Below are positions 578 through 33,472 of a stretch of 64,000 nt of DNA, in pieces (the first letter of the stretch is position 1; every line of letters begins with the position of its first letter). Origin of the DNA: Thiobacillus denitrificans DSM 12475 (GTDB lineage: Bacteria; Pseudomonadota; Gammaproteobacteria; Burkholderiales; Thiobacillaceae); NCBI RefSeq assembly GCF_000376425.1, contig NZ_AQWL01000012.1:1-64000 (forward strand). The letters are read 5' to 3'. Both the position numbers and the translations under genes were made by a program. The notes below the pieces were generated by a model, which saw nothing but the letters and a program-made list of their open reading frames with translations, did not search any database and was not told the origin of the DNA.

Positions 578-586
578 ATTTAAGTC

Positions 587-2287: not shown

Positions 2288-2299
2288 CTGGAGATTGAT

Positions 2300-2737: not shown

Positions 2738-2746
2738 GGAGCCAAG

Positions 2747-2950: not shown

Positions 2951-2953
2951 ACC

Positions 2954-3163
2954 ATGCAAAGCAAGCGTCCGTTCCAAGACATGACGCGGGAAACCTTGCG
3001 GCAACACCTGACCGGGATTGCCAGCAATGGCCCATGCGAATCAGCCATCAAGGAACTGCAAGCGCATACCAGCACGGCAAAGCATTTGGGTCATGCTTTG
3101 CGGCTGAATGCCGACCCCACGCCCGTCGCCGTTCCGTCAAACGCCCTGCCCATTTTGATCTGA
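2954..3163 (+). CDS. Small hypothetical protein within the PRTRC operon
   Basis: A 69-residue polar protein starting MQSKRPFQDMTRETLRQ. It starts 3 bases after the stop of protein C and ends 5 bases before the start of protein F, so it fits the operon exactly. I recognise no motif. It is not one of the named PRTRC families I know, so it may be a lineage-specific addition. The next gene could be read with an upstream start overlapping this frame, but the tight spacing favours two separate genes. Confidence 0.55.
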   Translation: MQSKRPFQDMTRETLRQHLTGIASNGPCESAIKELQAHTSTAKHLGHALRLNADPTPVAVPSNALPILI

Positions 3164-3168
3164 TCGCC

Positions 3169-7335: not shown

Positions 7336-7353
7336 ATTCAGTAATCCAAAGTC

Positions 7354-7381
7354 TTGATATACCCCTTATTTGGTGTATATT
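7354..7381 (+). promoter_or_regulatory. Sigma70-type promoter with overlapping inverted repeat, apparently leaderless
   Basis: A TTGATA hexamer (7354-7359) is separated by 16 bases from TATATT (7376-7381). The expected start of transcription falls at about 7388, on or next to the ATG at 7389, which has no Shine-Dalgarno sequence. The mRNA should therefore be leaderless. A nine-base inverted repeat with one mismatch (arms 7357-7365 and 7372-7380, ATATACCCC/GGTGTATAT) covers the region between the hexamers and would be a natural operator. Confidence 0.55.
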
Positions 7382-7388
7382 TACTTTC

Positions 7389-10300: not shown

Positions 10301-10856
10301 CGGTTCCGAGCATGAAATCGATGGCAAGAAGCGTTTCGATCCATCGCTTTCCACCTGGTTCGAGAGATGGAGGGTCGGGATCGAGAAATATGGCCGCGTG
10401 TGGATCGCGGATGGCGCAGTCGATGAAAACGGCAAGCTGGTGCTTGATGACCTGCTGGGCATCAAGCCGCCCGCTGGTCTCGACCCGGTGCGGGTTGTGG
10501 AGATCACGCTGCGACCAAACGAAGGCGTGGAGTCGGCGAAGTTTGCTCATTGGTTCGACATCTGTAAGGGTGAAGAAACCCCACGCAGTTCAGGTAACAG
10601 CTGGTGGCCATCCACACCATCCATGGCAGACGAATCAAAGCGGCTCGTAGAAGGGTTGGGACCAACGGGGTCGTTCATATGGACCGCACAGACCCACCAT
10701 CTTGCCTCTCCCGAAGAGGCACGTGAGTTCATCAAGGGAAAGATATTTCACGTGAACGGCGCGGCCCTCAAGGCCGTCCTTGCCGCTGAGCTACCCGATG
10801 CACCTGCGGCACCCGAAGGCGCGGAGCGCTGGTATTTGGTTGAGGGGAGTGCATGA
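7389..10856 (+). CDS. Large protein of unknown function (1155 residues)
   Basis: I do not recognise this protein. It is 1155 residues, soluble, with no signal peptide or membrane helix. The N-terminal part (about residues 1-130) is followed by a helical, probably coiled segment around 'LRQIQGKINSLQGELIEAQ', then a long mixed region with no Walker, HExxH or nuclease motif I can identify. Several stretches (such as 'RRYSPKNRMDVTIAYRDG' and 'WFRESMMRGSKYVVNPSI') look like ordered domains. The ATG at 7389 is preferred over an in-frame ATG at 7332 because the promoter at 7354-7381 lies between them. Its stop overlaps the next start (ATGA), so the DUF6283 gene is coupled to it. Confidence 0.8.
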   Translation: MKLKTDTSFVGTPPEADLERLDRFQSLQAGQYWRALLDVVEEGIDEGTMLLIQSIRWVDDAPHTIILRPHPSKIGTDTYLQVPQEDGTFRKTWFRFDEHRFLLKDFLAQFEFEPNYQAVRGEELRQIQGKINSLQGELIEAQSNPALLAGVVETGLREQELQKVAAAVTDEKSETKHGMPLPAVPGSDLVSLATGTVVDALGTGITVEGIASLKEAAKREHQVATIKAEWIQGKTTEIAETIRAMTPFYSEQAAAALAQTEDVRSYVAKLMRGIESLDLYVGKDVEVETIRTGDAAPKGTPLTFVQKKLLMDEELAVWADIDEWFDFSKEDKFFDAVREHDSLVNQIFPTERCVLVMAVTRREIDYGNPYESAAKNAENKKVFLLVRDGMNVYRVFSPVESHLGAARLFPSKNDQDRIFRGMDGSQIKFEDVAYTDKLAAHEKFALHYKRFLLLVCGLDHRLKLFGDFYEGPQSFHFVSMDFQEKHCRFLHDDDGSGLLPSGENRLPLKEWIAEKNSYLRSGSRVLCNWREVMNPDTAPGACKEERGRSSGFDRRYSPKNRMDVTIAYRDGESICVDVEVSGYSYSIHGNRNFNCKVNLSKFKNGHWDYTDQPFLCLDAVRPEELHWYIHNRGERQNHLAYIRFFKHALKHIQAELVGEGETRKRLTEALADGRIASGTEAEEIINQAVIAWRAANRGKPLPELADGAAPHAWKSLLDQMYMLAGEGQRRTVEIEAFVRDLGYDPLRLVLSGGAKLVVYGAPRREECDDRIDRHAWVHRITVEHGKTKYIEKSRRWAVLPKSAASETTLHQWESADQWSGRESAFPSYERKQEILEEAAHFSARLRPFTATMSTATHSLQLEDWAWFRESMMRGSKYVVNPSIAVPIGVVYYPNSKELRYLCVGSHKPHALLYQLAPDDAARASLRDSFVKPYARKDKAREDLARAVESGSIWSLMEVSITAFQSNHGVYCGSEHEIDGKKRFDPSLSTWFERWRVGIEKYGRVWIADGAVDENGKLVLDDLLGIKPPAGLDPVRVVEITLRPNEGVESAKFAHWFDICKGEETPRSSGNSWWPSTPSMADESKRLVEGLGPTGSFIWTAQTHHLASPEEAREFIKGKIFHVNGAALKAVLAAELPDAPAAPEGAERWYLVEGSA

Positions 10857-11281
10857 CCGGAAAGCGGAAGCAGCCGACGGTAGTCAGGGTGCGCCAGGCT
10901 GGCAAGGATCATCAGGTCGTCACCGTAGAGGGCGGACGAGGCGCTTACCGGCGCAAACCATGCAGTGATTGCCCGTGGCGGATCGATGCTGTTGGCGAGT
11001 TTCCGGCCGAGGCGTTCCGTCACTCAGCGGGAACTGCCTATGATATGGCGCGCGAGACATTCGCGTGTCATCAATCCGGCACTCGAAAACCATCAATCTG
11101 TGCGGGTTTCATGCTGCGCGGCGCTACACACAACATGTCCGTGCGCCTCGGCCTTATCACTGGTCGGATCAAGAACGATGTTTGCGACGGTGGCTACGAG
11201 CTACATGAAAGCTACCGCGCCATGGCCGTGGCCAACGGCATTGATCCGGATGATCCGGTGCTTTGGCCGTGCAGGCAATGA
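10853..11281 (+). CDS. DUF6283-type protein with cysteine motif
   Basis: A 142-residue protein containing CSDCPWR, then FACHQSG and ICAGF. This arrangement (CxxCPW ... CH ... C) is that of the DUF6283 family, found on phages and plasmids, presumably a metal-binding fold. It starts with an ATGA overlap with the 1155-residue gene, so the pair is probably functionally linked. No catalytic role can be assigned from sequence. Confidence 0.7.
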   Translation: MTGKRKQPTVVRVRQAGKDHQVVTVEGGRGAYRRKPCSDCPWRIDAVGEFPAEAFRHSAGTAYDMARETFACHQSGTRKPSICAGFMLRGATHNMSVRLGLITGRIKNDVCDGGYELHESYRAMAVANGIDPDDPVLWPCRQ

Positions 11282-11379
11282 GAATTGGACGTTTAAATAC
11301 CGCTGCACATTGTTCAGGGCGAGCACTTTGTAGCGTCGAGTCGCTGAATGGACGCGATGAAAAAAGAGGAGAGCACGAA

Positions 11380-11760
11380 ATGATCGAATGTGACCTGGCG
11401 AAGACTCCGTTGACGGCTAACGCACTAGCAAAAGCTCCGGATGCGTCTGGCAACTTACAGAAAATGGTGTTACGGAAGAGGCGATGTGTAGCAATTTTAT
11501 GGGCGCTGGGGATCACCGGGCTGGGAGTGGTAGTCGTTTTGTGGAAGGCCTGGTCGCTCGGCGGTGATGCAGTTGCACTTGCAACTGTGGCTGCCGCTGT
11601 TGCTGCAGCAGCAATTGTGATCGCTGTAGGTGTGGATACCTTTGCGGCTTCAAGAGCGTACGTTCTCCGTGAACGACAGATTGAGAATACCGACAACCGA
11701 GCCCGCCTCGGCTATCAGCCGGCTCCAGAAAAGAAGAGCCTGCTCAGGAAGGCTGCATAG
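11380..11760 (+). CDS. Hypothetical membrane protein
   Basis: Read from ATG 11380 (AGAGGAG upstream), the 126-residue protein has two hydrophobic segments (about 35-55 and 62-82, the second very Ala/Val-rich). It ends in a basic tail, EKKSLLRKAA. A longer frame opens at 11263 but lacks a ribosome-binding site and overlaps the DUF6283 gene. Family unknown. Confidence 0.55.
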   Translation: MIECDLAKTPLTANALAKAPDASGNLQKMVLRKRRCVAILWALGITGLGVVVVLWKAWSLGGDAVALATVAAAVAAAAIVIAVGVDTFAASRAYVLRERQIENTDNRARLGYQPAPEKKSLLRKAA

Positions 11761-11774
11761 TCAAGGAGAAGAGC

Positions 11775-11978
11775 ATGTCACATCCCATTGCTGACGCCAG
11801 GATAATCGACGCTCGTGAACATTTCCGGCCGCCGGGAATTGTTTACAAGGTTCAGATCCGTGTGAGCGTGAACGCAAGATTTCTTTTGGCCGTCGTGAAA
11901 TGCCTCCTTACCCGTAAGGAGTTGCGGATAAACCATACGTTCACGAATGACCCGTTATTGAATGGAGACTTTGAGTGA
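11775..11978 (+). CDS. Small hypothetical protein
   Basis: A 67-residue basic protein beginning MSHPIADARIIDAREHF, with an AAGGAG site ahead of the ATG. Its TGA overlaps the GTG start of the phosphatase gene (GTGA), so it is likely translated with it. No domain recognised. Confidence 0.45.
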   Translation: MSHPIADARIIDAREHFRPPGIVYKVQIRVSVNARFLLAVVKCLLTRKELRINHTFTNDPLLNGDFE

Positions 11979-12838
11979 ACGCTAATCAACGCCGGTTCGT
12001 ATCCGGAAACGACAGCAAAGCCGAACAGGCAGAACGAGTTGTCAGATTCAGCAGAAACAAGAGGGGCCGCGACTTTGTGATCGGAGACATCCACGGCACT
12101 TTCGACCTGGTGCTTGCCGCGATGGAACAAGCCGGATTCAACCCGGAAATCGACCGACTCTTCAGTGTCGGAGATCTTATTGATCGCGGGAACGGATCGC
12201 ATCGCTGTGCGGCATTTCTGGCCAAACCCTACGTCCACTCGGTACGGGGCAATCACGAAGACATGCTCATCGATCTGTATGCGGAGGGAACGCCCTCTCC
12301 GGAAGTACTGCGGGTCGCCGCCCGCTATAACGGCTTCAATTGGTGGCTCGATTTGCCTGAGACTGAGCGGCAGGAGATCCTGGCCGCCATCAGGAAGCTG
12401 CCCCTGGCCATCGAAATCGAAACGGATCGGGGTACGGTCGGCGTGATCCATGCCGACGTGCCACTCGGCATGGCATGGTGCGAATTTCTCGGGATGCTGA
12501 ATGTTGGCGATCCCGCCGTCATCAAGACCTGTCTCTGGGGACGAGACCGGCTTCGCCTGGGGGACATGACCGGGGTCCACGGTGTAGGCAGACTTTTTGT
12601 CGGTCACACACCGCAATGGGGCAACCTTACGAGAGCTGGCAACGTCTATGCGCTCGATACGGGGGCCGTTTTCGGCCAGACGGGGATGAAGGAGGAGGGC
12701 CATCTCACGATGGCCCAGGTGATGACGCGAACTGAGGTGCTCACCGCGCCGCACCGGAAGCCGGGGCTGGTTAATCTGTTCGACGAGGCTGTCCCGGCGG
12801 ATGGCTCGTTCGGTCAGTACGCGACCAAGGCCGCATAG
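11975..12838 (+). CDS. PP-type metallophosphoesterase (phage/bacterial Ser/Thr phosphatase class)
   Basis: A 287-residue protein with the full set of calcineurin-like metal motifs: GDIHG (37-41), GDLIDRG (about 65), GNHED (about 93), the His of 'VGVIHADVP' and 'GHTPQWGN'. This is the pattern of lambda phosphatase and PrpA/B-type enzymes, which use two metal ions to hydrolyse phosphoester bonds in proteins or small molecules. The start is GTG within the stop of the upstream gene. The substrate cannot be told from sequence, and symmetrical Ap4A hydrolase activity is an alternative. Confidence 0.85.
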   Translation: MNANQRRFVSGNDSKAEQAERVVRFSRNKRGRDFVIGDIHGTFDLVLAAMEQAGFNPEIDRLFSVGDLIDRGNGSHRCAAFLAKPYVHSVRGNHEDMLIDLYAEGTPSPEVLRVAARYNGFNWWLDLPETERQEILAAIRKLPLAIEIETDRGTVGVIHADVPLGMAWCEFLGMLNVGDPAVIKTCLWGRDRLRLGDMTGVHGVGRLFVGHTPQWGNLTRAGNVYALDTGAVFGQTGMKEEGHLTMAQVMTRTEVLTAPHRKPGLVNLFDEAVPADGSFGQYATKAA

Positions 12839-12850
12839 GAGAGGACGAGC

Positions 12851-13108
12851 ATGAGGAGCGAACTGCCAAAGGATCCGCCGCCTGGCCTGTTGATGAGTAT
12901 GGCGATCCGCTACGACCACGGTCTTGGGTGTCCGGGCTATTACGACAACTTTCCTCGCTTTGAGGGCGACAACCATCAGAAGCGTCTCGAATCGACGCTC
13001 CGCACGATGCGCCAGATCTACGAGGAAGTCAGCGGCTTTGGCTTCTACGCGCCGGAGCGCGAAGCTGAGTACGCTGCAATGATGCCCGATGACTTCGCAT
13101 GCGGATGA
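12851..13108 (+). CDS. Conserved plasmid hypothetical protein
   Basis: An 85-residue acidic protein containing 'PPPGLLMSMAIRYDHGLG' and a helical second half 'RLESTLRTMRQIYEEV'. Proteins of this form recur on proteobacterial plasmids and phages without known function. The start has GGAG ten bases upstream, 12 bases after the phosphatase. Confidence 0.6.
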   Translation: MRSELPKDPPPGLLMSMAIRYDHGLGCPGYYDNFPRFEGDNHQKRLESTLRTMRQIYEEVSGFGFYAPEREAEYAAMMPDDFACG

Positions 13109-13380
13109 TGAAAATGAATGACGTGCAAATGAAAAATTCACGGGACGCGAACACCACGCTTGAGGGCATCAGGGTTGAGCAAGGGCAGATTTGGCTTGAC
13201 CTCGACAAGCGCATGAATGGCCGGCACGTCCGTGTCGTTTCCGTGGCAGACGGCAAGGCCAAGGTATCGCGCACCAATCCGAATAGTGGCTGGACGAGCG
13301 ACAACACCACGACATTGTCCGTCAGACGCATGCATAAAAGCAGCACTGGCTGGGCGCTATTGAAAGGGGCAACCCCATGA
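13099..13380 (+). CDS. Small protein, possibly SH3/KOW-like beta barrel
   Basis: 93 residues. After a Met-rich start (several ATG codons in frame between 13099 and 13129, true start uncertain), it reads 'IRVEQGQIWLDLDKRMNGR' followed by alternating hydrophobic strands 'HVRVVSVADGKAKVSR'. The pattern resembles the small DUF6354-type beta-barrel proteins of phages (resemblance only). It overlaps both neighbours slightly, as in a compact operon. Confidence 0.5.
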   Translation: MRMMKMNDVQMKNSRDANTTLEGIRVEQGQIWLDLDKRMNGRHVRVVSVADGKAKVSRTNPNSGWTSDNTTTLSVRRMHKSSTGWALLKGATP

Positions 13381-13562
13381 CCATGACCTACTACGTGATT
13401 CTGGGCAGTGTGTACGCGGCTTACGTGCTGGGCGTGATGCACGGGAAAAAACACGAGCACTGGGCAAACGTCGTCATGGCTCTTGCAATTGGCGCTCTGT
13501 GGCCGGTTGCCGTGCTGTACGGAATCTACCTGCAGCATTTTGCCCGCGCCAAGGGCGAGTAA
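13377..13562 (+). CDS. Small membrane protein
   Basis: 61 residues with two hydrophobic helices (about 3-20 and 30-52) separated by HGKKHEHW. The ATG overlaps the stop of the upstream gene (ATGA at 13377-13380). No family recognised. Confidence 0.5.
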   Translation: MTMTYYVILGSVYAAYVLGVMHGKKHEHWANVVMALAIGALWPVAVLYGIYLQHFARAKGE

Positions 13563-13607
13563 TCACCAACTGGGAGCATCAACAGCAAATCCAACGGACT
13601 GACGGAC

Positions 13608-13856
13608 ATGAGTGAAATTATTTCTTATCGCGCAATTCAGGCGTCGCTCGAGCGATGCATGGCGGCCCAGCCGCCTGAAGGCATCGAGTGCAGCTTGAGC
13701 CGCGATGCAAGCCTGCTCGGGGACATCGTTGGTGAAATGATCTGGCGCAAGCTGATCGATATTCCGATGAATGCTGTGACCGGAAAGCACTTGGATGCAC
13801 TGAACCGGTGGATCGTTGTCGATAAACAGGAGGAAGAAAATGCTGATGCCGCATGA
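13608..13856 (+). CDS. Small hypothetical protein
   Basis: 82 residues, acidic and helical, starting MSEIISYRAIQASLERCM. Nothing in it points to function. It overlaps the following membrane-protein start by 17 bases, and the coupling ribosome-binding site (AGGAGG) lies inside its 3' end. Confidence 0.5.
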   Translation: MSEIISYRAIQASLERCMAAQPPEGIECSLSRDASLLGDIVGEMIWRKLIDIPMNAVTGKHLDALNRWIVVDKQEEENADAA

Positions 13857-14193
13857 AGCGCAAGGCTATAGCGAGTGGGTCGTGACCAATTTCCTGACGG
13901 TCCCGGTGCTGATGATTTCAGGGGTGCTGATGGTCGTAACAATCGGTGCGGTGGTTAACTTGCTCAGTAATCCTCAATTGCTAAGAAATGCCGCCATTCT
14001 CGTTCGGCTTGGATTGTTGACGCTACTGGATGGTTGCATGACATGGTACGGGGTGCAGGTTGTCCTGCAATCATCATGGGTCCATGTGTTGACGTTCGGA
14101 AACGCTCTTTGGGTGGTCACCCCTACTGTACTTACCGGACTTATCGTTGTTTCCCTTTTACACAGGGAACAGACACCGGCTGACAACCAGTAA
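13840..14193 (+). CDS. Hypothetical membrane protein
   Basis: Read from ATG 13840, behind a strong AGGAGG, it gives 117 residues with at least three hydrophobic helices (about 18-42, 50-75 and 80-108). An in-frame ATG at 13816 lacks such a site. Function unknown. Confidence 0.55.
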   Translation: MLMPHEAQGYSEWVVTNFLTVPVLMISGVLMVVTIGAVVNLLSNPQLLRNAAILVRLGLLTLLDGCMTWYGVQVVLQSSWVHVLTFGNALWVVTPTVLTGLIVVSLLHREQTPADNQ

Positions 14194-14203
14194 AGGAGCA
14201 TGA

Positions 14204-15196
14204 ATGCCAACCGGAATTGAATGGACGGATGAAACTTGGAACCCAGTGACCGGATGCACCAAAGTGTCATCAGGGTGCAAACACTGCTATGCCAAACATC
14301 AGGCTTGGCCTCGCTTGTCTTCGATGCAGAATACCGTTTACACCAGCCGTGAGTTCGAGGACGTGCGTTGCCACGCGGAACGTCTTGTTCAGCCAGTGCG
14401 TTGGACGAGGCAGCGCAGAATTTTCGTGAACAGTATGTCCGACCTCTTTCATGAAGACGTACCGGACGAGTTCATCGACAGCGTCTTTGGCGTTATGTGG
14501 GCATGCCTCTGGGGCCGCGACGAGCAACCTGGCCACATTTTCCAGGTGCTGACCAAGCGTCCCCAGCGAATGCGCGATTACTTATCGCAGGATCGGCGTG
14601 AACATTGGGCTCACGCCGCTGTGAGCCATGGTGGCGGCATGGATCCGGATGGCATCTACGACCAGGTGATGGATGCGGAAGGTCCGCACCCGCGGATCTG
14701 GCTCGGCGTCAGCGTCGAAGACCAGGTAGCCGCCGATGAGCGTATCCCGTTGCTGCTGCAATCGCCAGCCGCCGTGCGGTGGGTCAGTGCGGAGCCCCTA
14801 CTGGAGCGAGTTGATCTGACATCCATCAGGCTAGCCGGCGGAGACTTCGATGCTTTGCGCGGAGGGGACGTTGGTCATTCCGTGCGGATTGAACGTAGGC
14901 CGTCGCTGGATTGGGTCGTCGTCGGCGGCGAGAGCGGCCCGAACGCCCGCCCGATGCATCCTGATTGGGCAAAAGGTTTGCGCGATCAGTGCGCCGCGGC
15001 CGGCGTGCCATTCCTTTTCAAGCAGTGGGGAGAGTGGGCGGACGCAGAAGATTTTCCGAGCGAGGTCCAGGAAGACTACGACGCGCGTGGTTTGACTGAA
15101 AGCATGTGCATCCGTGTTGGCAAGAGAGCCGCCGGTCGCCTGCTCGATGGCATGCAGCATGACGGTTACCCGGCCAATCAAGGGTCAACATCGTGA
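14204..15196 (+). CDS. DUF5131 / phage Gp37-Gp68 family protein (radical-SAM-like cysteine cluster)
   Basis: A 330-residue protein opening 'GIEWTDETWNPVTGCTKV', with cysteines at 18, 25 and 28 (CX6CX2C, ending in the CKHCYA motif). The segment 'FVNSMSDLFHEDVP' and 'IFQVLTKRPQRM' follow. This is the DUF5131 (Gp37/Gp68) family, common on phages and plasmids. The cysteine triad and barrel-like spacing suggest an iron-sulfur, radical-SAM-related enzyme (inference), but the substrate is unknown. AAGGAG precedes the ATG. Its stop overlaps the next GTG start. Confidence 0.82.
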   Translation: MPTGIEWTDETWNPVTGCTKVSSGCKHCYAKHQAWPRLSSMQNTVYTSREFEDVRCHAERLVQPVRWTRQRRIFVNSMSDLFHEDVPDEFIDSVFGVMWACLWGRDEQPGHIFQVLTKRPQRMRDYLSQDRREHWAHAAVSHGGGMDPDGIYDQVMDAEGPHPRIWLGVSVEDQVAADERIPLLLQSPAAVRWVSAEPLLERVDLTSIRLAGGDFDALRGGDVGHSVRIERRPSLDWVVVGGESGPNARPMHPDWAKGLRDQCAAAGVPFLFKQWGEWADAEDFPSEVQEDYDARGLTESMCIRVGKRAAGRLLDGMQHDGYPANQGSTS

Positions 15197-20058: not shown

Positions 20059-20113
20059 TTGACGCGGGCTTCCGCGACACGTAACATTTTCGTTTATATT
20101 AACAATATTGTTA
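20059..20113 (+). promoter_or_regulatory. Promoter and palindromic operator of the condensin operon
   Basis: TTGACG (20059-20064) and TAACAT (20082-20087) are spaced by 17 bases, a near-consensus sigma70 promoter. Transcription should begin at about 20094. The initially transcribed region holds a perfect 14-bp palindrome TAACAATATTGTTA (20100-20113). A half-site GTAACA at 20081-20086 inside the -10 mirrors TGTTAC at 20109-20114. The layout is that of an autoregulated operator for the winged-helix protein encoded 13 bases downstream. Confidence 0.7.
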
Positions 20114-20126
20114 CGCGAAGCGTGGA

Positions 20127-20414
20127 ATGCAAAATAACTCTGTGATCCTGACGGACGCCGCGATACGTGCTTTCCTGAACAAACCCCTAACCAAGGCAGA
20201 ATCCATTGCCCTTTGGTGGTTCGTGGCCAACCTGCCCGCCGGCGGTGACGTCATTTCGCTAGCAAGCTTGGCTGAAACTCTCAAGGTTCCGAGAGAGCGT
20301 TTGAGTCCGACTATAAAACGTCTTTGCGAAATTGGCTTTCTGGTGCGCGGCGCCAAGATTGCCCTTTCCTATCACTACAAACTGAACCCGGTCTTCATCC
20401 GCATCCTTTCATGA
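20127..20414 (+). CDS. Winged-helix regulator leading the MukFEB-JetD operon
   Basis: 95 residues: 'ESIALWWFVANLPAGGDVIS' and 'LASLAETLKVPRERLSPTIK' form a helix-turn-helix. A wing 'GFLVRGAKIALSYHYKLNP' follows, the plan of MarR/RepL-like winged-helix proteins. Its stop is embedded in the next start (ATGA at 20411-20414), so it is translationally coupled to the kleisin gene and belongs to the system. Since a promoter with a palindrome lies just upstream, autorepression is the simplest model. An alternative is a plasmid-recognition subunit. Confidence 0.8.
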   Translation: MQNNSVILTDAAIRAFLNKPLTKAESIALWWFVANLPAGGDVISLASLAETLKVPRERLSPTIKRLCEIGFLVRGAKIALSYHYKLNPVFIRILS

Positions 20415-21727
20415 ACGGACAAGGTCAGACCGGCGTCAACGAAATTATCCAGACCGTCCTTGACGACGGGTTATCGCTGGATCTTTGGCCTCGCGATGTC
20501 GCCCTTTTGGTTCTCATCCAGAAAAAAATGAATTCCGGAACGGGGTTTTCCTTCGCCATGGAGGGCGGCGAATTGCGTTCCCTGGCGGCAAAGGTGGATG
20601 GGCTGGAGGTCAAGGATTCGTCGGGTACCGAGAAACGTCTGACTGAAAGCATAAACAGGCTGATCCGGGCCAACTGTCTGGCCCGCGCAGACCTCTCGCG
20701 CCTGCGCAATATCGAAGACACGGAATACCAGCTCACATCCCTCGGCGAAAGCATTGCCTCCTGGCATATCGAGCACACCCGCTTCAGCGGGGAACCGATG
20801 GCCGCCATTCTGCAGGTGTTCAATGGCCAGATCGTCGATCTGCATGCCAAAGCGCTGAACCTCGAAGGGGATGAGGATTGGCGGAGGGACATCCTGTTGC
20901 CGATGCAGGTGGTCCTGAAGGACATGCTCGTGAACGTCCAGCGTCACCAGCGAGAGCTGGACCGTCAACATGAAGCGCTGCGTGCTTTCATCCCCACGCT
21001 TCTGACGGAAAACAGCGAAGCCTCCATTGACCAGTGCGAGCAGCAACTGACACAGGTCATCCGCACCATCGACGACCTTCAGGAAGTTACGCTCTCCTCA
21101 TCCAGCAAGGCGTTCGAACTGCTCTATCAGATCGAAATCGCCGGCGAGAACAAGAAGATCGAAGGAGTAGGCCCCGTCTGTCAGGACATCACGCGGCGCA
21201 TGCATTCCATCGTGCAGTGGACCGCGCAGCGGGCCACAGACTGGGTTGAGCATCACGGCGTTGTGCACGATTTTCTTCGGAGCGTTATTCGCATCGATCG
21301 CCAGCGACGTCTCACTGAAGCGCTCAAACACGCTATCGCAATCCCTCCGGACTGGTCGCTCAGGATCAGCCTGGAACCCCGACTGATCAGGATGCGCGAG
21401 GATGTCCGGCAGCAGAGCCGGACGAGGTCTGCGCCCAGACTGCCTCGCCGCGATTATGCGCAGGAGAAGGTGCCGCACGTCGAAGATGAATTGCCGGGTC
21501 GCCTCAGGGCCCTGCTCGACCAGAAGCTAGCTGAAGGCGAGGCCCGATGGAGCGAGATTGTCACTGCCGCGATCACAGAAGGCGCTGACCCAGACAATGT
21601 ATTCGCTCACTTGTCCTGGCTCATGGGTGAAATGGTGAGGTCAGGCAAGATCGATGCCGGAGAGCGAAACTGGGTGCCGGTGGCCAGCGGCATGCGCATG
21701 GAAGAACTAAGGATAACTGCACCATGA
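20411..21727 (+). CDS. jetA: MukF/MksF (JetA)-like kleisin
   Basis: 438 residues from ATG 20411. An in-frame ATG at 20324 lies inside the regulator and is rejected. The chain shows the MukF plan: N-terminal winged helix (1-110) ending 'YQLTSLGESIASWHIE', a helical middle with an amphipathic segment 'LPMQVVLKDMLVNVQRHQRE', then 'IVQWTAQRATDWVEHH' and 'VIRIDRQRRLTEAL'. A C-terminal winged helix (about 360-438) completes it. Each of these blocks can be laid alongside E. coli MukF from memory. Kleisins bridge the two SMC heads. It overlaps jetB by four bases. Confidence 0.88.
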   Translation: MNGQGQTGVNEIIQTVLDDGLSLDLWPRDVALLVLIQKKMNSGTGFSFAMEGGELRSLAAKVDGLEVKDSSGTEKRLTESINRLIRANCLARADLSRLRNIEDTEYQLTSLGESIASWHIEHTRFSGEPMAAILQVFNGQIVDLHAKALNLEGDEDWRRDILLPMQVVLKDMLVNVQRHQRELDRQHEALRAFIPTLLTENSEASIDQCEQQLTQVIRTIDDLQEVTLSSSSKAFELLYQIEIAGENKKIEGVGPVCQDITRRMHSIVQWTAQRATDWVEHHGVVHDFLRSVIRIDRQRRLTEALKHAIAIPPDWSLRISLEPRLIRMREDVRQQSRTRSAPRLPRRDYAQEKVPHVEDELPGRLRALLDQKLAEGEARWSEIVTAAITEGADPDNVFAHLSWLMGEMVRSGKIDAGERNWVPVASGMRMEELRITAP

Positions 21728-22371
21728 ATTACCTCGACAGGCATTTTGTCGATGCGGACCTGATTCTGCGCCGAGGCGGCCATATCAACCGGTCGAACCT
21801 CTCTCTCTATCAGTTCCTCATCGACCACTTCGATGACCTCAAGGCCTTCTACCAAGGCTACCAGTGCGAACTGGTCCAGCACTCAGATGGTTTCTTCTTC
21901 CTGATGTCGAAGGGAGGGCTCATTCCGAGCAGAATCCTGCCGAAGCCTTGTGTCCATCTGGGCATGTTCATTGCCCTGAAAACACGGGATCCGGAAATCA
22001 CCCGCTCGTCCGGCCGGATCAGCCTGCCCAATCTAATGCAGTCAATTGAGACCTCTGTTCCCCGCGAGACGCTGCAGCAGGTCTATGCGCCCAAACAACG
22101 GGAATCCTCGTCCGACAACCGAATCGCCGACGAGATCAAGAAAGCATTGAAGACTCTTGTCGACTTGCGTTTCATCGAGATGCACGGAGATGCCATCAAG
22201 CCGCTGGAAGCCATTCACCGTTTCGCCGAACTCGCACGGCACGACAATAACCCGGATGAGATCAGTCGTTTGGTGCTGACGGAGCACAAAGGCGTGGCCT
22301 TCCAGGCCTTCGGTGAAGAGAGCGAAGAAGAAGCTGACGATGATAGGGATGAAAATGAAGGGAAGGATTGA
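21724..22371 (+). CDS. jetB: MukE/MksE (JetB)-like condensin subunit
   Basis: 215 residues. 'LRRGGHINRSNLSLYQFL', 'FYQGYQCELVQHSDGFFFL' and 'GLIPSRILPK' parallel the opening of MukE. 'IKKALKTLVDLRFIEMHG' parallels its C-terminal winged helix. As in MukE, the chain ends in a highly acidic tail (ESEEEADDDRDENEG). MukE-type (KITE) subunits dimerise and bind the kleisin and DNA. ATGA overlap with jetA, and its 3' end overlaps the SMC start. Confidence 0.88.
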   Translation: MNYLDRHFVDADLILRRGGHINRSNLSLYQFLIDHFDDLKAFYQGYQCELVQHSDGFFFLMSKGGLIPSRILPKPCVHLGMFIALKTRDPEITRSSGRISLPNLMQSIETSVPRETLQQVYAPKQRESSSDNRIADEIKKALKTLVDLRFIEMHGDAIKPLEAIHRFAELARHDNNPDEISRLVLTEHKGVAFQAFGEESEEEADDDRDENEGKD

Positions 22372-25300
22372 ACAGATTGCCTATATCGGTTGGCTCGGCA
22401 TCGACTATGAAGCCATCACGCTGGACAAGGGGGCCTTCACCGGCCTGATCGGGCCAAGCGGAGCCGGTAAGTCGACCCTGACAATGTGCCTGGCCTACGC
22501 CCAGCTGCCTGACCGCCGGGTACTGGACATTAGTCCCATTTCTGACCTGCAGGACCCCCATAACGCCGGGAAGGACAGTCTGCTCGGCCGGATCAGTCCG
22601 AACTATGGGTACGCTTATGTCGTGCTGGATATCCTGACCCGGCACGGCAAGCGTCTGATCGCCGGCATCCATGCTCAAGGCGAGGACGGCCGCGGAAACC
22701 TTACCCGCTTCTACATCGACAACTACCCGGAAGGGGCCCCGCTGCAGGACGCCTTACGGATCAGTGAAGGTGATACCCAGCATTACCCCGATCTGCCTGA
22801 TCTGAAACGCAGTCTGGCCGCCAGAGGGTACGACCTCCATATCTGCCGGCAGGTGCAGGATTACGGACAGGTGCTTTATGAAGCTGGCGTGCTGCCGACC
22901 AATCTCGCCGATTTCTCGGACCGGTCGCTCTACAGCAAGCTCATCGAGGCAACATACCGGGGCGGCATTTCCGCAGATGTAGCGAGCAAACTCAAGGACT
23001 ACCTCCTGCCCGAGGACCGGAAGGTCCCTGAGATGGTCTCCAAAATTCAGGAATGTACCAGTCAGGTCTTCAGTACCCGACGTACGCTGGGCGACGCAGA
23101 TCGACAGCTCAACCTGCTCCAGGCTACTTACGGCACCGGTAAGGAAATTGTGTTGAACGCCCTCCGGCATGAGATCGATGTGCAGCATGTCGTCGAACTG
23201 GAGATTGAAAGACTGGAACGCGAGGTCACCGCGGACATGGAGACGCTGTCCAGCAAGACTCAAGAGGTCGATCTGCTGTCAAAAGACATCCGGACGACCG
23301 AGGAGACTATTCAAACCCTTCAGCAGAGCACCCAAACTGAACTTAGAACTGAAGAAGGTTTGATGGATGTCCGGGGTAAAGAGGTACAGACCAAAGAAAC
23401 TGCACATGACGCTGCCAAGGGCCAACTGCGTCAGTTCAAGAAAGGCGAGAAAGCGTGGAAGGCTGCGGCCGGCATACACGCCGATCGCGATCCAACTTGG
23501 TTGGCAGATTGGCTGGATAATGAAATTGAAAATCGCGGTAACGACATTGCCAGGAAAGGATTGGAAATAGAGGGGCTTCAGGCGAGCCGCGCCGCCCTAG
23601 TTGTCGGTACAGTCAATACGAAAACAGCTACCCTCGCAAAGTCTGTCGGCGGCCAGACGCTGGAAGAGGTTTTTGATGAATCAGGCGATCAACAAGCCGT
23701 CGCATTGGAAATGGGACTTTGCGGCCTGGTAGATGGCGTTGTAGGGGTCACGCCGGATGTTCTGGTCAACCTGGAATCCAGCCAGGATTTGCCGGACATC
23801 TTCTGGCTTGGCGAACGCTCTCCCAGTGAAGCAACGGTCAGAACCGTCGGACAATGGAACGTATCGGCCGGCGCCGGCGGCTACATCGTGTCGAGCAAGC
23901 GCAGACATCCCGTTTTCGGCAGGCAGGCCCGCGAGAACCGGATAACGGAGATTGATAAAAACATCAAAATCCTGCTCGACAAGCAAAAAACCTATCGCAT
24001 CGAGAAAGAAGGCGAGGACGGCAAAGGCGGACTCAAGGGCCGCCTCAGTTCACTGCAAATGAACCACGAGGCGATCGCCTTCTTCATTGAAAATCGAGGC
24101 AATGCCATTGCCATCGAGCAGAACGCAGAAACCGCCAAAAAGGCTCATGAAGATGCCAGCCGCCTTCACGGTGAATCTCAGTTCAAGGTGAATGATCTTA
24201 GAAATAAGTTGCTCAAGGTTGGCGAGCCCCACCAGGAAAATCTCAAAGAGCTAAACAACAAGAAAACCAAGGCGGAACGAACACTGGATGAAATCAGTAA
24301 ACGTCTTCCAGGCAAACAGGATTCGCTGAAAGAAAATCAAGATCAGCTCCGGAAGCAGCGCGATTCCATGGCGTCGATGATCGAAACTCTTGGGCAACAA
24401 GGCGAATCCTTCCTGTCCGATGCCCGAGGGATGGAATCACCGCTGCCGGACATCTATAACATCGAACAGACACGACGAATCATCAATCTGAGAAACGCGC
24501 TTGAAAGTGAATCGCCCTCAAGACTGGAGTTGATTCAAGCTGCCTCGCCGACAGACACGTCGAGTTGCATCCGGCTCTGGCCTATGCTGCTCGAAATCTT
24601 GCGCGACCGGATCGTGCTCGATCTGGCCGATATGGACGGCGCCGATTTACTCAGCGAAATGCGGAAGAGACGGAACAACCTGAATGACCAGCTGGGGCTA
24701 CAGGAAAACGAAGTCAGAATTCAGGCCCGCTCGCTGCATAGCGCGATCCAGTCATCCGTGTCTTCCCAGCGGAACCGAATCCGGGCGCTCAGCAAGCTCG
24801 GTGAAGACATCCACTTCGGCAACATCGTCGGCATCCGCATCGTCGTCGATACCCGCCAGGAAATGCTGTCCATGCTGGAGGGATTCGCCGATCAGATGTC
24901 GCTGTTCCAGGACAATACCAAGCCAGTCGACCAGTCCCTCCGGGAATTCTTCGCGGCGGCCAGCGAGAAGTACAAGTTCACGGGGGAGGAACTGCTGGAC
25001 TACCGGAATTACATGGACCTCAGAATCGAGGCACGGCGTAAAAATAAGGAATGGGAAACCGCCTCCTCCCTGTCCGGCGGCGAATCGATCGGTGGCGGCT
25101 TGGCCATAGCCCTGATGCTGTCGAGATCGATGGCATCCCGAGGCGAAATCAAGCCTGAACAGATCACCCCCCTTTTCGTCATCGACGAACTGCACCGGCT
25201 CGATCCAAAGGGCCAGGGCATGATCGTTGACTTCGCCAAGCGCGAGGGCTTCCAGGTCTATGTCACAGCCCAGGCCCTGAAGCCGAACTTTGAATGCACG

Positions 25301-25384
25301 CTCTATACGCTTGAGCGCATATACGATCCTGAAGAACGGCTCATCATCCGGGGTCAGGAGAAGAAGCTGCCCCATGCCGCCTGA
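22355..25384 (+). CDS. jetC: MukB/MksB (JetC)-like SMC ATPase
   Basis: 1009 residues from ATG 22355 (AGGG upstream; ATG 22349 is also possible). Walker A GPSGAGKST lies at 33-41. Coiled-coil arms lie at about 240-380 and 590-700, flanking a small hinge (about 390-530, around 'GDQQAVALEMGLCGLVDG'). The ABC signature LSGGES lies at 906-911 and Walker B LFVIDELHRLD at about 940-950. The SGGESIGGG block with the following helix is MukB-like. It is much shorter than MukB (about 1480), as in Mks/Wadjet ATPases. It should extrude DNA loops by ATP hydrolysis. Overlaps both neighbours. Confidence 0.9.
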   Translation: MKGRIEQIAYIGWLGIDYEAITLDKGAFTGLIGPSGAGKSTLTMCLAYAQLPDRRVLDISPISDLQDPHNAGKDSLLGRISPNYGYAYVVLDILTRHGKRLIAGIHAQGEDGRGNLTRFYIDNYPEGAPLQDALRISEGDTQHYPDLPDLKRSLAARGYDLHICRQVQDYGQVLYEAGVLPTNLADFSDRSLYSKLIEATYRGGISADVASKLKDYLLPEDRKVPEMVSKIQECTSQVFSTRRTLGDADRQLNLLQATYGTGKEIVLNALRHEIDVQHVVELEIERLEREVTADMETLSSKTQEVDLLSKDIRTTEETIQTLQQSTQTELRTEEGLMDVRGKEVQTKETAHDAAKGQLRQFKKGEKAWKAAAGIHADRDPTWLADWLDNEIENRGNDIARKGLEIEGLQASRAALVVGTVNTKTATLAKSVGGQTLEEVFDESGDQQAVALEMGLCGLVDGVVGVTPDVLVNLESSQDLPDIFWLGERSPSEATVRTVGQWNVSAGAGGYIVSSKRRHPVFGRQARENRITEIDKNIKILLDKQKTYRIEKEGEDGKGGLKGRLSSLQMNHEAIAFFIENRGNAIAIEQNAETAKKAHEDASRLHGESQFKVNDLRNKLLKVGEPHQENLKELNNKKTKAERTLDEISKRLPGKQDSLKENQDQLRKQRDSMASMIETLGQQGESFLSDARGMESPLPDIYNIEQTRRIINLRNALESESPSRLELIQAASPTDTSSCIRLWPMLLEILRDRIVLDLADMDGADLLSEMRKRRNNLNDQLGLQENEVRIQARSLHSAIQSSVSSQRNRIRALSKLGEDIHFGNIVGIRIVVDTRQEMLSMLEGFADQMSLFQDNTKPVDQSLREFFAAASEKYKFTGEELLDYRNYMDLRIEARRKNKEWETASSLSGGESIGGGLAIALMLSRSMASRGEIKPEQITPLFVIDELHRLDPKGQGMIVDFAKREGFQVYVTAQALKPNFECTLYTLERIYDPEERLIIRGQEKKLPHAA

Positions 25385-26348
25385 TGCCCTTGAGATTGCC
25401 CTGCTAGCCAGGCTCATTGAGCACGGCACCAGCCCCGAGAGCACTCGTAATCGCGCCCTGATCAGGCGCTATGAGACCGCTGGCTGGCTGATGCCATCGA
25501 GCCGGCGCAACGAATGGCTTGTCCGCGACGAAGCCAGGCTGCTTATACGATCTCGTCTGGCGAAACTGCTGCCGGGCTGGGAGGCGGATTTCAAACTGTT
25601 GCGGGCGCATGGGCTTGACCCCCGAAAGCCTCAGGACATTGAGGCCCTGCCAGCGCTTCGCAGGCCTGCCGTGGCCGAAGGGAAGATCAACAGACGCAAC
25701 TGGAAGAGTGCCGCAGGTCTTGGGCCCAAACGAAAAAGCATGCTGAAGACCGAGGCCATGCTGACCAGCGACTGGGTGATGCGTTTGCGCCCGAACAAAG
25801 GCCTGCTCGCCAAATGGGAAGATGGTTCGACCGATTTGTGGGAGATGGCCCAGAGCTGGACAGAGTGCCCGATCCCCCAGCGTCAGTGGCTGAATCTGCG
25901 GGAATTCGCAGGCACCCCGCCGGCCGCGGTGATCACCTGCGAGAACCTTGGGGCCTACATCGATCTGCCGCTGCCCGAAAACGCGCTTGCGGTGTTTTCG
26001 CCTGGTAAGCATACGGAAATAGCAATTGAGTTATTGGCCAAACTCCCTACATCGAAATGGGTGCATTTCGGTGACATAGATCCTGAAGGACTGGAGATCG
26101 TCGAACAGATCGCCATTGTATCTGGCCGGAAAATAGCCTTGTACATCCCTTCCTTTGCCAGCGAATACGTGGAGTCGGGCATGGCACAGAAGAAAAAGGT
26201 TGTTTGGGAAATCGAATCAGAACATCCCGTGCTGAAGGCTCTAGCCACGCGAGGAGAAGGGCTCTATCAGGAGGTGTTTATGCTTGATACTCGACTGGAA
26301 AATGAGATAGCGGAACTGTCCGGTCATGTCCGACCTACTTACCCATAA
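25374..26348 (+). CDS. jetD: JetD/MksG-like TOPRIM nuclease
   Basis: 324 residues from ATG 25374 (GTCAGGAG upstream), overlapping the SMC gene by 11 bases. A longer frame from 25290 lies wholly within the SMC gene and is rejected. The N-terminal two thirds form an arm-like helical domain. The C-terminal part has TOPRIM landmarks: Glu 190 in 'AVITCENLGAY' and the acidic pair in HFGDIDPEGLEI (233-236). This matches the DUF2220-type JetD/MksG nuclease of Wadjet, related to topoisomerase VI, which cuts plasmid DNA after loop extrusion. It is the diagnostic subunit that separates a defence system from a plain MukBEF condensin. Confidence 0.87.
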   Translation: MPPDALEIALLARLIEHGTSPESTRNRALIRRYETAGWLMPSSRRNEWLVRDEARLLIRSRLAKLLPGWEADFKLLRAHGLDPRKPQDIEALPALRRPAVAEGKINRRNWKSAAGLGPKRKSMLKTEAMLTSDWVMRLRPNKGLLAKWEDGSTDLWEMAQSWTECPIPQRQWLNLREFAGTPPAAVITCENLGAYIDLPLPENALAVFSPGKHTEIAIELLAKLPTSKWVHFGDIDPEGLEIVEQIAIVSGRKIALYIPSFASEYVESGMAQKKKVVWEIESEHPVLKALATRGEGLYQEVFMLDTRLENEIAELSGHVRPTYP

Positions 26349-31259: not shown

Positions 31260-32408
31260 ATGGCTCTTAGATCAACGTTCGCTATAACGTCTGGATTGCA
31301 ATACAGGTTGCGTGCTGCCGGCGCGTTGCTTGGTGTGACTGACAATACGCTTCGGACTTATTCGGACAACGCCGGGATCGAGGTCAAGCGCGCCTCCGAT
31401 TTCAGCCCCGGTGCACCGCCCGTACGTGTCTTCTTGCCGGAAACGCTTTTCCAACTCGCTCAATGGCGGCGAGCGCAGGGATATATCAAGATCCCGCAGT
31501 TTGCGCGGAGCCCAATCGTCCTCGCGATTTACGTAATCAAGGGCGGAACCGGGAAGACCACGACGGCCGTTGAGTTAGCCATTCACCTTCAGATGATGGG
31601 CCTGCGCGTGGCGCTCATCGATATCGACATCCAGGGCAACGCCACCCAATCCATGGGGTACGAACCTGATCTAACGATGGACGAGGCGACGGCGTATGAG
31701 GTTAACGCTGATGCTATCGTGCAGGACACCTTTGCCTCGATCATGCTGCCGTTTCTAGACCGTAGCCGCGGGAGCCTGGCTTTACGTGCCGAAGTTGGCG
31801 AAGGCGTCATCAAGAAACCGTTCGGCGAACACGGGCCTCATCTCATCCCAGCCGACACCTTCATTGGAGATCTCGAACAGGGGTTGGCACTCGCCAAGGG
31901 ACAGCGGGAGCTCTACATTCGGCAGATGATCGAAGCCTCGAAGGATGGCAGCGTCCCTGGGTTCAATGCATCCAATTACGACGTGATCCTGTTTGATTGC
32001 CCGCCCAATGTTTCTTTCACGTCAACCGCAGCCATGGCGGCCGCAGATATCGTTGTTTCCCCGATCCGGCTCGACGCCTTCAGCGTGAAGGGCCTGACCA
32101 AGGTCATGAATGAGATTACTGCGATGGATGAAGCCTATAAGCTGCGTCCGCAGCTGGTTATCCTGCCGACGCATTATTCGCCCCATTTGGCTCGTATTGG
32201 GCGGATGCAGTCACAGCTCAACAAATACCGAGACATGCTGGCACCCAACGTGATCTCGACAAGCGAGGAATTCCCGAAATCGCTTGAGAACTACCTGCCG
32301 CTGTCCTTGCAAAAGCCCACATCGACGCCAGCCAGCGAATATCGCATGTTCGCCGAGTTCATGTTCAAGAAGATCGTCGATCTGGGTTCGAAAGGGGGTG
32401 GCAAATGA
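31260..32408 (+). CDS. parA: ParA, type Ia partition ATPase
   Basis: 382 residues. An N-terminal helix-turn-helix-like domain (about 15-75) precedes a deviant Walker A box KGGTGKTT (94-101), 'VALIDIDIQGNATQSMG' (A' motif) and 'YDVILFDCPPNVSFTS' (Walker B). Size and N-terminal domain identify a type Ia ParA that both moves the plasmid and represses its own promoter, fitting the repeats upstream. It overlaps parB by four bases (ATGA). Confidence 0.92.
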   Translation: MALRSTFAITSGLQYRLRAAGALLGVTDNTLRTYSDNAGIEVKRASDFSPGAPPVRVFLPETLFQLAQWRRAQGYIKIPQFARSPIVLAIYVIKGGTGKTTTAVELAIHLQMMGLRVALIDIDIQGNATQSMGYEPDLTMDEATAYEVNADAIVQDTFASIMLPFLDRSRGSLALRAEVGEGVIKKPFGEHGPHLIPADTFIGDLEQGLALAKGQRELYIRQMIEASKDGSVPGFNASNYDVILFDCPPNVSFTSTAAMAAADIVVSPIRLDAFSVKGLTKVMNEITAMDEAYKLRPQLVILPTHYSPHLARIGRMQSQLNKYRDMLAPNVISTSEEFPKSLENYLPLSLQKPTSTPASEYRMFAEFMFKKIVDLGSKGGGK

Positions 32409-33472
32409 AAATACGAAAACTCACACCAGGCCCCGCGATGCCGCTGCCGGACTTTAAGCAGCCCGCAGAGTTGGGCGATGCTTCGGCGCAAGAAAGCCCG
32501 AGCGACAAGCCTGGCACCACAGACGCGCCAAGCGCTCCTGAAGCCCACGTTGATACTGATGCCGCGCCTTCCCCGGCGGCAAATGATGAAGAGCCCAAGG
32601 TCACAGGCGCCACTGAATCTCCTGTTGAGGATTCGCAGCAGATCGAAACCAGAGAGTACGTCGAGCCCACGAAGGACGAGCTGGGGGTTCTTGAGCAGAT
32701 TGCGATAGAAAAAATCCTCACTTCGCCGTTCCAGCCGAGACTTTACTTTGATGAACAGTCCCTTGAGGACCTGGCGGAGAACATTCGCGAGGTTGGCGGC
32801 CTCGTTGAGCCCATTAAGGTAAGGCCGCTGGCCGATGGGCGATTCGAGCTCATTTCCGGTGAGCGCCGGGTGCGTGCTTACCGTATCAACGGCGCACCAG
32901 AGATTCCAGCCTGGATAAAGGCCATGGACGATGGCACTGCGTTCAAGGAAGCCTGCGCAGAGAACCTCAACCGTGAGGATCTGACGCTGTATGAGAAGGC
33001 GGCCGCTTACAAGCGTGCGCTCGATGAAGGCCACGCCAAAAGCCAGCGAGCGCTCGCCGTGCTGTCCGGCGTGAACCGTATGGATATTCAGCGGTGTCTG
33101 GGAATTTTCAAACTCCCGCCCGCTGCCATCAAGGTCATCGCGGCAAACAAAGACATCCTGGCGCTGAGCCATATCGAACACCTCGTCGATTACGCGACAA
33201 ACGGACACGGTGATCTGGTGGCCCAGGGATTGGAATTGGTCAGCAAGGATCGCCTGAAGCGGGACATGCTTATCAGCTGGATCGAGAAACAAGCCAAGCC
33301 AAAGAACGCCGTGCAGACCTTCCATCAGTATTCCCTGCATGGCAAGCCGCTGGGCCGGATGGTTATCAAGAGCAAGAAGGTTTCATTCAACCTGGACAGC
33401 GAAGAAAACTCAAAGCTTCTGGTTGAGGCCTTTGAGAAAGCGATAGCCAGCCTGGGAGGCACGAAAGGGTAA
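32405..33472 (+). CDS. parB: ParB centromere-binding protein
   Basis: 355 residues. A disordered acidic N-terminus (1-90) leads to the ParB domain with 'TSPFQPRLYFDEQSLEDLAE' and GERRVRAYR (152-160), then 'ENLNREDLTLYEKAAAYKR', a helix-turn-helix (about 205-240), and a small C-terminal dimer domain. ParB binds parS, and the palindromes directly downstream (33519-33639) are the obvious targets. Confidence 0.93.
   Translation: MKIRKLTPGPAMPLPDFKQPAELGDASAQESPSDKPGTTDAPSAPEAHVDTDAAPSPAANDEEPKVTGATESPVEDSQQIETREYVEPTKDELGVLEQIAIEKILTSPFQPRLYFDEQSLEDLAENIREVGGLVEPIKVRPLADGRFELISGERRVRAYRINGAPEIPAWIKAMDDGTAFKEACAENLNREDLTLYEKAAAYKRALDEGHAKSQRALAVLSGVNRMDIQRCLGIFKLPPAAIKVIAANKDILALSHIEHLVDYATNGHGDLVAQGLELVSKDRLKRDMLISWIEKQAKPKNAVQTFHQYSLHGKPLGRMVIKSKKVSFNLDSEENSKLLVEAFEKAIASLGGTKG

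Follow-up and report, generated by a model that had tools for sequence, protein, structure and literature searches.

MukBEF is the chromosome segregation machine of Enterobacteria. In the JetABCD (Wadjet) and MksBEFG systems, a condensin extrudes DNA and the nuclease JetD cuts once the extrusion of a small circle is complete (PMC10586767, PMC10123090). A 2025 study gives MukBEF as lacking JetD (PMC7617805), and a 2023 review leaves the relation between Wadjet and MukBEF open and calls a defence past of MukBEF a tempting speculation (PMC10586767). Here we analysed a stretch of 64,000 nucleotides (the window) that forms the start of an 89,547-base contig of Thiobacillus denitrificans DSM 12475 (NZ_AQWL01000012.1), in which positions 20127-26348 of the plus strand carry five genes, each overlapping the next according to the reading of open reading frames (ORFs). 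They encode a winged-helix protein, a kleisin, a KITE subunit, a structural maintenance of chromosomes (SMC) ATPase and a JetD-type protein (Table 1). We conclude that this cassette is a condensin of the MukBEF lineage carrying a JetD nuclease, which most likely restricts small circular DNA (probability about 0.8).

The three condensin subunits were assigned by profile searches. The kleisin matched PRK05260 and, above the Pfam cut-off, MukF_M (Table 1), as well as KicB (E 0.0016), the latter short of its cut-off. The KITE subunit matched the MksE and MukE Pfam models, both above cut-off, and PRK05256 (8.7e-15), and the SMC matched PRK04863 together with MukB_N (8.5e-31) and MukB_hinge (3.6e-7), again above the Pfam cut-offs, with MukB structures as its best PDB matches. 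The components expected of the MukBEF superfamily, namely a MukF-type kleisin, a MukE-type KITE subunit and a MukB head and hinge, were all found at Pfam cut-offs. The NCBIfam equivalog cut-offs for MukF, MukE and MukB were not reached by the window proteins, which are therefore distant family members and not orthologues, and the MksE equivalog NF040858 gave 16.9 bits (E 0.0034) against a cut-off of 400. The window MukB, with 1009 amino acids (aa) and arms of 196 and 196 residues, falls short of the roughly 1480 aa of a long MukB and is therefore not an orthologue of the housekeeping protein. A label of Wadjet types I-III was tried and rejected by profile: no PADLOC JetA family matched the kleisin at E-values up to 1, and JetB1 (0.0011) and JetC1 (5.7e-6, best over residues 526-689, the hinge end and second arm) matched weakly, compared with 7e-42, 9e-15 and 3e-87 for MukF, MukE and MukB. 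Judged by these profiles, the cassette joins a condensin of the MukBEF lineage to a nuclease of Wadjet type and does not belong to Wadjet I-III.

The nuclease was recognized by profile, predicted fold and active site. It matched JetD_C above the Pfam cut-off (1.2e-7, covering only part of the model) and PADLOC JetD1 (4.5e-8); no NCBIfam model matched it, and a phmmer search with its sequence found no solved structure at E-values up to 1. An AlphaFold2 (AF2) model built from 27 aligned sequences (mean predicted local distance difference test score, pLDDT, of 92.9) matched MksG of Corynebacterium glutamicum (8b7f, E 3.2e-7), which was the best fold match, as well as JetD of Pseudomonas aeruginosa (7til) and Topo VI-A. 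The TM-scores of these matches were low, about 0.4 or less, perhaps reflecting a different placement of domains in the model. In the alignment, the catalytic E/D/D residues were kept in 31/31 JetD rows counted from three clades of such cassettes; a few of these rows lie at contig edges with the rest of the cassette out of sight, and L075, L078 (a fragment without the aligned catalytic glutamate) and L081 were left uncounted. The Walker A, signature and Walker B motifs and the TOPRIM triad are all intact, which supports an active machine.

These results confirm the observations of an earlier note on this DNA and support its interpretation in part. It had described five overlapping genes for a winged-helix protein, MukF, MukE, MukB and a TOPRIM protein, and all five ORFs were confirmed; the motifs that it listed (GPSGAGKST, LSGGES, VIDELHRLD, E190, GDID and the acidic tail of MukE) were all located. 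The profile searches placed the kleisin, KITE and SMC proteins in the MukF, MukE and MukB families, as it had proposed by eye, and its reading of the SMC held, since the match is to MukB and not to an unrelated ABC family. The JetD/TOPRIM identity was likewise borne out, given that JetD_C, formerly DUF2220, was matched above cut-off. Its suggestion of a Muk-type branch of the Wadjet/Mks family, as opposed to Wadjet type I, is supported by profiles, trees and fold. Its further idea, a resident plasmid that excludes competitors with the system and itself escapes by size, is a conjecture.

Compared with housekeeping MukBEF, the cassette has the same MukF, MukE and MukB families, the same N-terminal and hinge domains of MukB and the same gene order F-E-B, but differs by the jetD gene after mukB, by its accessory distribution and by arms of about 196 residues each in place of about 443 and 384. 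With Wadjet JetABCD I-III it shares the kleisin-KITE-SMC-TOPRIM plan (PMC10586767) and the fold and motif of JetD, but the JetA match is missing, those to JetB and JetC are weak and that to the JetD C-terminal model is partial. MksBEFG of C. glutamicum and Pseudomonas is alike in having MukBEF-like subunits and the MksG nuclease, with the MksE Pfam model matched at 6e-25, whereas the NCBIfam MksE model was matched only weakly and two MksBEF sets (MksG not being part of the test) formed a distant outgroup. The same four-gene plan was found in Burkholderia pyrrocinia pBPJTT and Escherichia coli DETEC-P881, where the genes are annotated as MukB/MukE and a DUF2220 or 'Wadjet ... JetD domain' protein; both differ from the window in having a full-length MukB (1473 and 1527 aa) and belong to other clades.

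Based on homology, MukB, MukF and MukE of the cassette would load onto DNA and extrude loops with ATP. If the published model of Wadjet I applies by analogy, the two motors would exhaust the DNA of a small closed circle and stall, activating the bound JetD dimer, whose TOPRIM metal site would then cut both strands; on large or linear DNA extrusion would not run to completion, and such DNA would be spared. Control of the operon probably falls to the winged-helix protein, acting through the perfect palindrome TAACAATATTGTTA, which was absent upstream of six relatives from the short-MukB clade.

Relatives were searched for with a JetD alignment (window, Burkholderia plasmid and Aeromonas) in a collection of genome contigs comprising, by its description, 84,980 species, using two strict peptide patterns that make the result a lower bound. 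The scan matched 131 stretches, 56 of which encode a relative. According to our own hidden Markov models, adjacent mukF, mukE, mukB and jetD genes were present in 23/56 loci (two ORFs make up mukE of L043 and jetD of L080); nine further loci were partial, weak or at contig edges, and the remainder, 21 from Aeromonas and three from Motilimonas, carried a stray jetD. The complete cassettes fell into three groups. The short-MukB clade, to which the window belongs, includes Gallionella, Sideroxydans, Rhodocyclaceae, Nitrosomonadales, an unclassified betaproteobacterium and Rhodoferax, and its MukB arms measured 188-197 residues in five rows, using aligned domain borders. A full-length group with a MukB of about 1470 aa includes Pseudomonas lini, Duganella, Endozoicomonas and the Burkholderia plasmid, together with metagenome-assembled genomes titled Binatia, Bryobacterales and Myxococcales, titles that misbinning can falsify. 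A divergent group (MukB 1515-1527 aa) comprises Enterobacteriaceae, Tatumella, Vibrio and Pseudoalteromonas. In eleven full-length rows, housekeeping proteins included, the arms measured 440-445 and 382-397 residues. Directly before mukF, a winged-helix gene was found in 5/6 short-clade relatives (phmmer E 7.5e-20 or better), and in L026 of this clade it was reduced to a remnant tail. Among the relatives found, the Burkholderia cassette is the only one whose sequence record was deposited as a plasmid; genome contigs hold the remaining complete cassettes named here.

The cassettes are rare and patchily distributed. The window MukB was found in 0/36 other genomes of the same genus beyond a short Walker-type match, and no near-identical plasmid copies of the cassette were detected among 72,556 plasmid records at megablast sensitivity. 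In complete E. coli genomes the divergent cassette occurred once in 5426, in DETEC-P881 (L195 14013-21765), within an island carrying integrase-domain, UvrD-helicase and ATP-dependent nuclease genes; the annotation divides its kleisin region between two ORFs, and its clade placement is based on 92.6% DNA identity to a Kluyvera cassette. A JetD search across the class (369 genomes) gave six matches, namely the query's own Aeromonas caviae, a full-length mukFEB-jetD in G1076, one genome with fragments and three weak ones, and a search across the phylum (398 genomes, first JetD alignment) gave the window and seven weak matches. A MukF family search of 397 genomes matched 33, of which 32 exceeded the equivalog cut-off and were taken as housekeeping and one was the window; a MukF-alignment search of 399 genomes of the order recovered the window and two fragments. 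Each MukB search of the plasmid collection returned 15 records, the Burkholderia one being non-housekeeping and accompanied by JetD, and the other 14, enterobacterial or from Aeromonas, being taken as housekeeping by organism and annotation. No non-housekeeping MukFEB without JetD was seen in these MukF and plasmid MukB searches, a test made weak by the rarity of the family. Two incomplete loci were also observed: a 619-aa MukB ORF with jetD in a 4.36-Mb contig (L040 8130-10984), with no mukF or mukE match and thus a possible decayed cassette, and, in another genome of the order (G1439), an N-terminal piece of MukF that lies close to the end of a contig and adjoins a gene read by eye as integrase-like (L188 3918-4271).

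Among the few cassettes whose surroundings were examined, some adjoin genes of known defence systems or transposition. GajA (E 2e-240) and AbiEii were found beside the L041 cassette and a CBASS cyclase, E1-E2 and AbiEii beside L187; single neighbours were BovA (L059), a type IIG restriction enzyme (L031) and a WYL protein (L044), and 2/10 neighbour proteins in the defence scan, both from L046, had no match. The L027, L030 and L044 cassettes have TniQ, TnsA-like or Mu-type transposase genes in their vicinity, with 2/4 scanned neighbour proteins of L027 giving no match, and the Burkholderia cassette (L002) adjoins SAVED, nucleotidyltransferase and ThiF genes. These neighbours fit an accessory defence module.

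Restriction of small circular DNA has to be weighed against two other functions. The patterns of linkage count in its favour: the four genes recur together across distant bacteria, and the patchy presence, including the absence from other genomes of the genus, argues against housekeeping chromosome folding. The condensin might instead maintain plasmids, with MukFEB compacting or segregating a large replicon and JetD acting as a Topo VI-like resolving or regulatory subunit and not as a defence effector. ParA/ParB and Rep3 genes on the window contig, the segregation role of enterobacterial MukBEF and the JetD-like proteins with replaced catalytic residues beside housekeeping mukB or elsewhere in such genomes (see below) are in line with this proposal. 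We regard it as improbable, given that cassettes also occur in other genome contigs, some of them beside known defence or transposition genes, and that the catalytic residues are kept in all 31 cassette-clade JetD rows counted. An anti-phage system acting on circularized phage genomes more than on plasmids would explain the anti-phage systems among the defence neighbours, but is unlikely: the published work on JetABCD and MksBEFG concerns plasmids (PMC10586767, PMC10123090), and searches of phage and viral collections found no relative, although this carries little weight in either direction. In the viral contig collection the patterns matched 6, 41 and 93 stretches, none of them confirmed as a relative, the phage collection held no relatives of the cassette, and a phage origin was rejected on these grounds.

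Several points weigh against the restriction of small circles. JetD position 298, the first residue of a C-terminal ExE, is Y or F in 6/7 short-clade rows, with E300 kept. In MksG a C-terminal glutamate pair, E349/E351, has been proposed to provide the nucleophiles in JetD, according to PMC10123090; if the ExE pair corresponds to it, as is presumed here, the cutting chemistry of the short clade may differ. The half-length arms may change the DNA-measuring property, the neighbour genes were picked by eye and without control loci, so that they yield no enrichment figure, and the defence role is a predicted activity drawn from homology and context.

To place the window cassette relative to housekeeping MukBEF, a MukB tree (50 rows, one MksB outgroup; same-genome duplicates L097-L101 and L105-L108 and MukBs below 950 aa left out) and a MukF+E+B tree (27 chosen rows, two MksBEF outgroups; four housekeeping rows without MukF) were built. 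Both gave the same order, with short MukB and JetD branching first, then full-length MukB with JetD, then the divergent group and Endozoicomonas, both with JetD, next to housekeeping MukBEF. In the MukF+E+B tree the key nodes had supports of 90/96 and 94/95 and the housekeeping clade 100/100; the two MksBEF sets were imposed as outgroup, and only their mutual grouping (100/100) is a result. In the approximately unbiased (AU) test, forcing all 17 JetD-bearing rows into one clade cost 10.9 log-likelihood units (p-AU 0.017; 0.022 for the complementary form of the same split), with groups set by the presence of JetD after the earlier MukB tree had been seen. The order was unchanged in quick trees after removing L037 and L038, the divergent group or one outgroup, with Shimodaira-Hasegawa-like approximate likelihood ratio test values of 85-96 at two key nodes.

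JetD-like proteins were also found alongside housekeeping MukBEF. When 22 genomes were searched for MukB, it emerged that six Aeromonas and three Motilimonas carry housekeeping MukB as the sole kind, that five Enterobacteriaceae or Tatumella genomes and Vibrio tetraodonis have two MukBs, a housekeeping one and a divergent one with JetD, and that Pseudoalteromonas sp. G4 has only the divergent one. In the 11/21 Aeromonas loci that show both genes, the stray jetD follows mukB on the same strand; it lies about 10 kb downstream in two further genomes and about 26 kb upstream, on the same strand, in A. sobria, and in the three Motilimonas it is on a contig other than that of mukB. The genes between mukB and jetD of A. 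caviae are, by eye, unrelated to condensins, and the two genes therefore show proximity and not an operon. The triad is intact in 20/22 Aeromonas and 3/3 Motilimonas rows; one acidic residue is missing from L064 and one from L068, and in L070 jetD is split into two ORFs. A model of A. caviae JetD, only fair in quality (pLDDT 78), matched MksG, JetD and Topo VI-A.

Among 247 genomes of the order of A. caviae, 17 had a JetD-like protein and 230 had no match; the 17 comprised seven in which the stray JetD is accompanied by another paralogue (D2), six with D2 alone, three Motilimonas and one genome designated G599, a relative of Motilimonas. D2 (L160-L172; L174 6543-7520) is conserved in Aeromonas and relatives, and in six loci its neighbour was read by eye as aspC. 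None of the 8 aligned D2 rows has the catalytic glutamate, which is D in seven and N in the other, and 6/8 have lost the first aspartate of DxD, with L160 keeping both aspartates and L161 having D and E. In G599 the JetD-like gene (L173 8139-9092) starts 3 bases past the end of housekeeping mukB, behind mukF and mukE; this mukB is 73-74% identical to that of Motilimonas, and a tpiA-like gene (by eye) lies nearby, as in Aeromonas. The catalytic glutamate and the second DxD aspartate of the G599 protein are replaced. Neither this protein nor A. caviae D2 matched a Pfam family at 0.01, and their kinship to JetD comes from profile-search E-values of 1.4e-76 and 3.7e-44, respectively, and from alignment. 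The median pairwise ratio of nonsynonymous to synonymous substitution rates was 0.25 for stray JetD (16 sequences, from 22; 82/120 pairs below saturation), 0.15 for D2 (11) and 0.07 for MukB (10), suggesting that stray JetD and D2 look to be under purifying selection while evolving faster than MukB. Housekeeping MukBEF may still have the stray JetDs as partners or regulators.

An unrooted JetD tree of 38 chosen rows (L160 and L161, both D2, cut to their last 320 residues) contained a branch (99/97) that separates the JetDs of Aeromonas, Motilimonas and G599, together with D2, from the rest, a grouping that mirrors the housekeeping clade of MukB. An earlier JetD tree, which left out duplicates, L017, L034, L036, L081, L112 and rows below 240 aa and used the last 320 residues of L050, put Endozoicomonas on this side too (92/80). 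For the operonic JetDs, the branching order does not everywhere follow the MukB tree.

We give even odds to a descent of the housekeeping MukBEF of E. coli and its relatives from a JetD-armed anti-DNA defence condensin, whose JetD would then have been lost, moved or disarmed. Loss of JetD by MukBEF is favoured by the trees and not proven, because very long branches lead to the outgroup, which joins the tree at the short clade, composition is biased and sampling was led by JetD. The branch lengths, the position of the short clade and the sampling also count in favour of an alternative in which the nesting is an artefact and housekeeping MukBEF and JetD-armed MukFEB are sisters, the Aeromonas and Motilimonas JetDs being later transfers; so do the lack of a JetD-like protein in most housekeeping lineages searched and the stray jetDs that are not linked to mukB (A. 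sobria, Motilimonas). This alternative, which concerns evolution and not the function of the window cassette, is a serious if somewhat doubtful one: the AU test speaks against a single JetD-bearing clade, the topology withstood all three removals, the stray JetDs and D2 fall together in agreement with the MukB clade, and in G599 a JetD-like gene stands directly behind housekeeping mukB.

JetD-armed true MukFEB, and JetD relics in genomes and in one operon with housekeeping MukBEF, provide concrete material on a defence past of MukBEF. It can now be asked whether MukBEF can be made to hand DNA to a JetD and whether the JetD of Aeromonas has kept a need for MukBEF, and the half-length arms of the window clade offer a natural test of SMC arm length in DNA measuring. 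A broad MksB tree and an operon list were built in PMC7617805, and JetD-armed mukFEB operons may be in that list. The open-licence PMC literature, as far as its text was accessible, yielded no description of JetD-armed operons of the MukBEF lineage or of JetD alongside housekeeping MukBEF; the NCBI annotation already names single genes of such loci MukB and JetD.

Table 1. Positions of the cassette genes, motifs, upstream elements and replicon genes in the window (columns: feature, positions, strand, basis or remark)
Small winged-helix/MarR-like protein, 95 aa	20127..20414	+	Probable regulator; Pfam matches sub-threshold, e.g. MarR_2 0.083
MukF-type kleisin, 438 aa	20411..21727	+	PRK05260 7.1e-42, MukF_M 1.8e-12
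MukE/MksE-type KITE subunit, 215 aa, acidic C-terminal tail	21724..22371	+	PF21980 6e-25, PF04288 3.6e-16
Short MukB-type SMC ATPase, 1009 aa	22355..25384	+	PRK04863 2.8e-87; PF04310 and PF16330 above cut-off
JetD-type nuclease, 324 aa, N-terminal part and TOPRIM	25374..26348	+	JetD_C 1.2e-7; AF2 fold match
Walker A GPSGAGKS, MukB 33-40	22451..22474	+	Motif reading
ABC signature LSGGES, MukB 906-911	25070..25087	+	Motif reading
Walker B VIDELHRLD, MukB 942-950	25178..25204	+	Motif reading
JetD E190, TOPRIM acidic residue	25941..25943	+	E in 7/7 short-, 16/16 full- and 8/8 divergent-clade rows
JetD D234-x-D236, TOPRIM DxD (within GDID)	26073..26081	+	Kept in the same 31 rows as E190
Sigma-70-like promoter match TTGACG-17-TAACAT	20059..20087	+	Consensus scan
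Perfect palindrome TAACAATATTGTTA	20100..20113	none	Putative operator of the winged-helix protein
ParB	587-2287		
ParA	31260-32408		
Second ParB-domain protein	32405-33472		
Rep3-type initiator	47813-49435	-	

Alternative starts of the window mukB are possible at 22349 or at a GTG at 22313. Sigma-70-like promoter matches were not above chance for the region, with two found and a mean of 2.9 in shuffles. The contig appears plasmid-like because it carries two ParB-domain proteins, ParA and a Rep3-type initiator. This agrees with the plasmid-like replicon of the earlier note; the ends of the contig do not overlap and so do not show it to be a circle. The window also encodes a Gp3-like recombination directionality factor (40830-42083), a phage-type integrase (53825-55054) and a ribonucleotide reductase (35443-37929), and a topoisomerase IV A-like gene (by eye) lies at contig position 65405 (L192). 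The replicon may be a large plasmid or a phage-plasmid. In a PADLOC scan of the four genes nearest the cassette, one (14204-15196) matched candidate families (PDC-M30B/M41B); it encodes a DUF5131 protein (Pfam 9.9e-94).

A second condensin-nuclease locus was observed elsewhere in the same genome, on contig C10 (L112, 44000-58000) at 7261-13962, and also in L196 at 62-3202. It encodes a 1667-aa SMC with no PADLOC match followed by a JetD-family protein (PADLOC JetD1 1e-15), and its upstream genes, labelled by eye, are likely KITE, kleisin and WYL-type.

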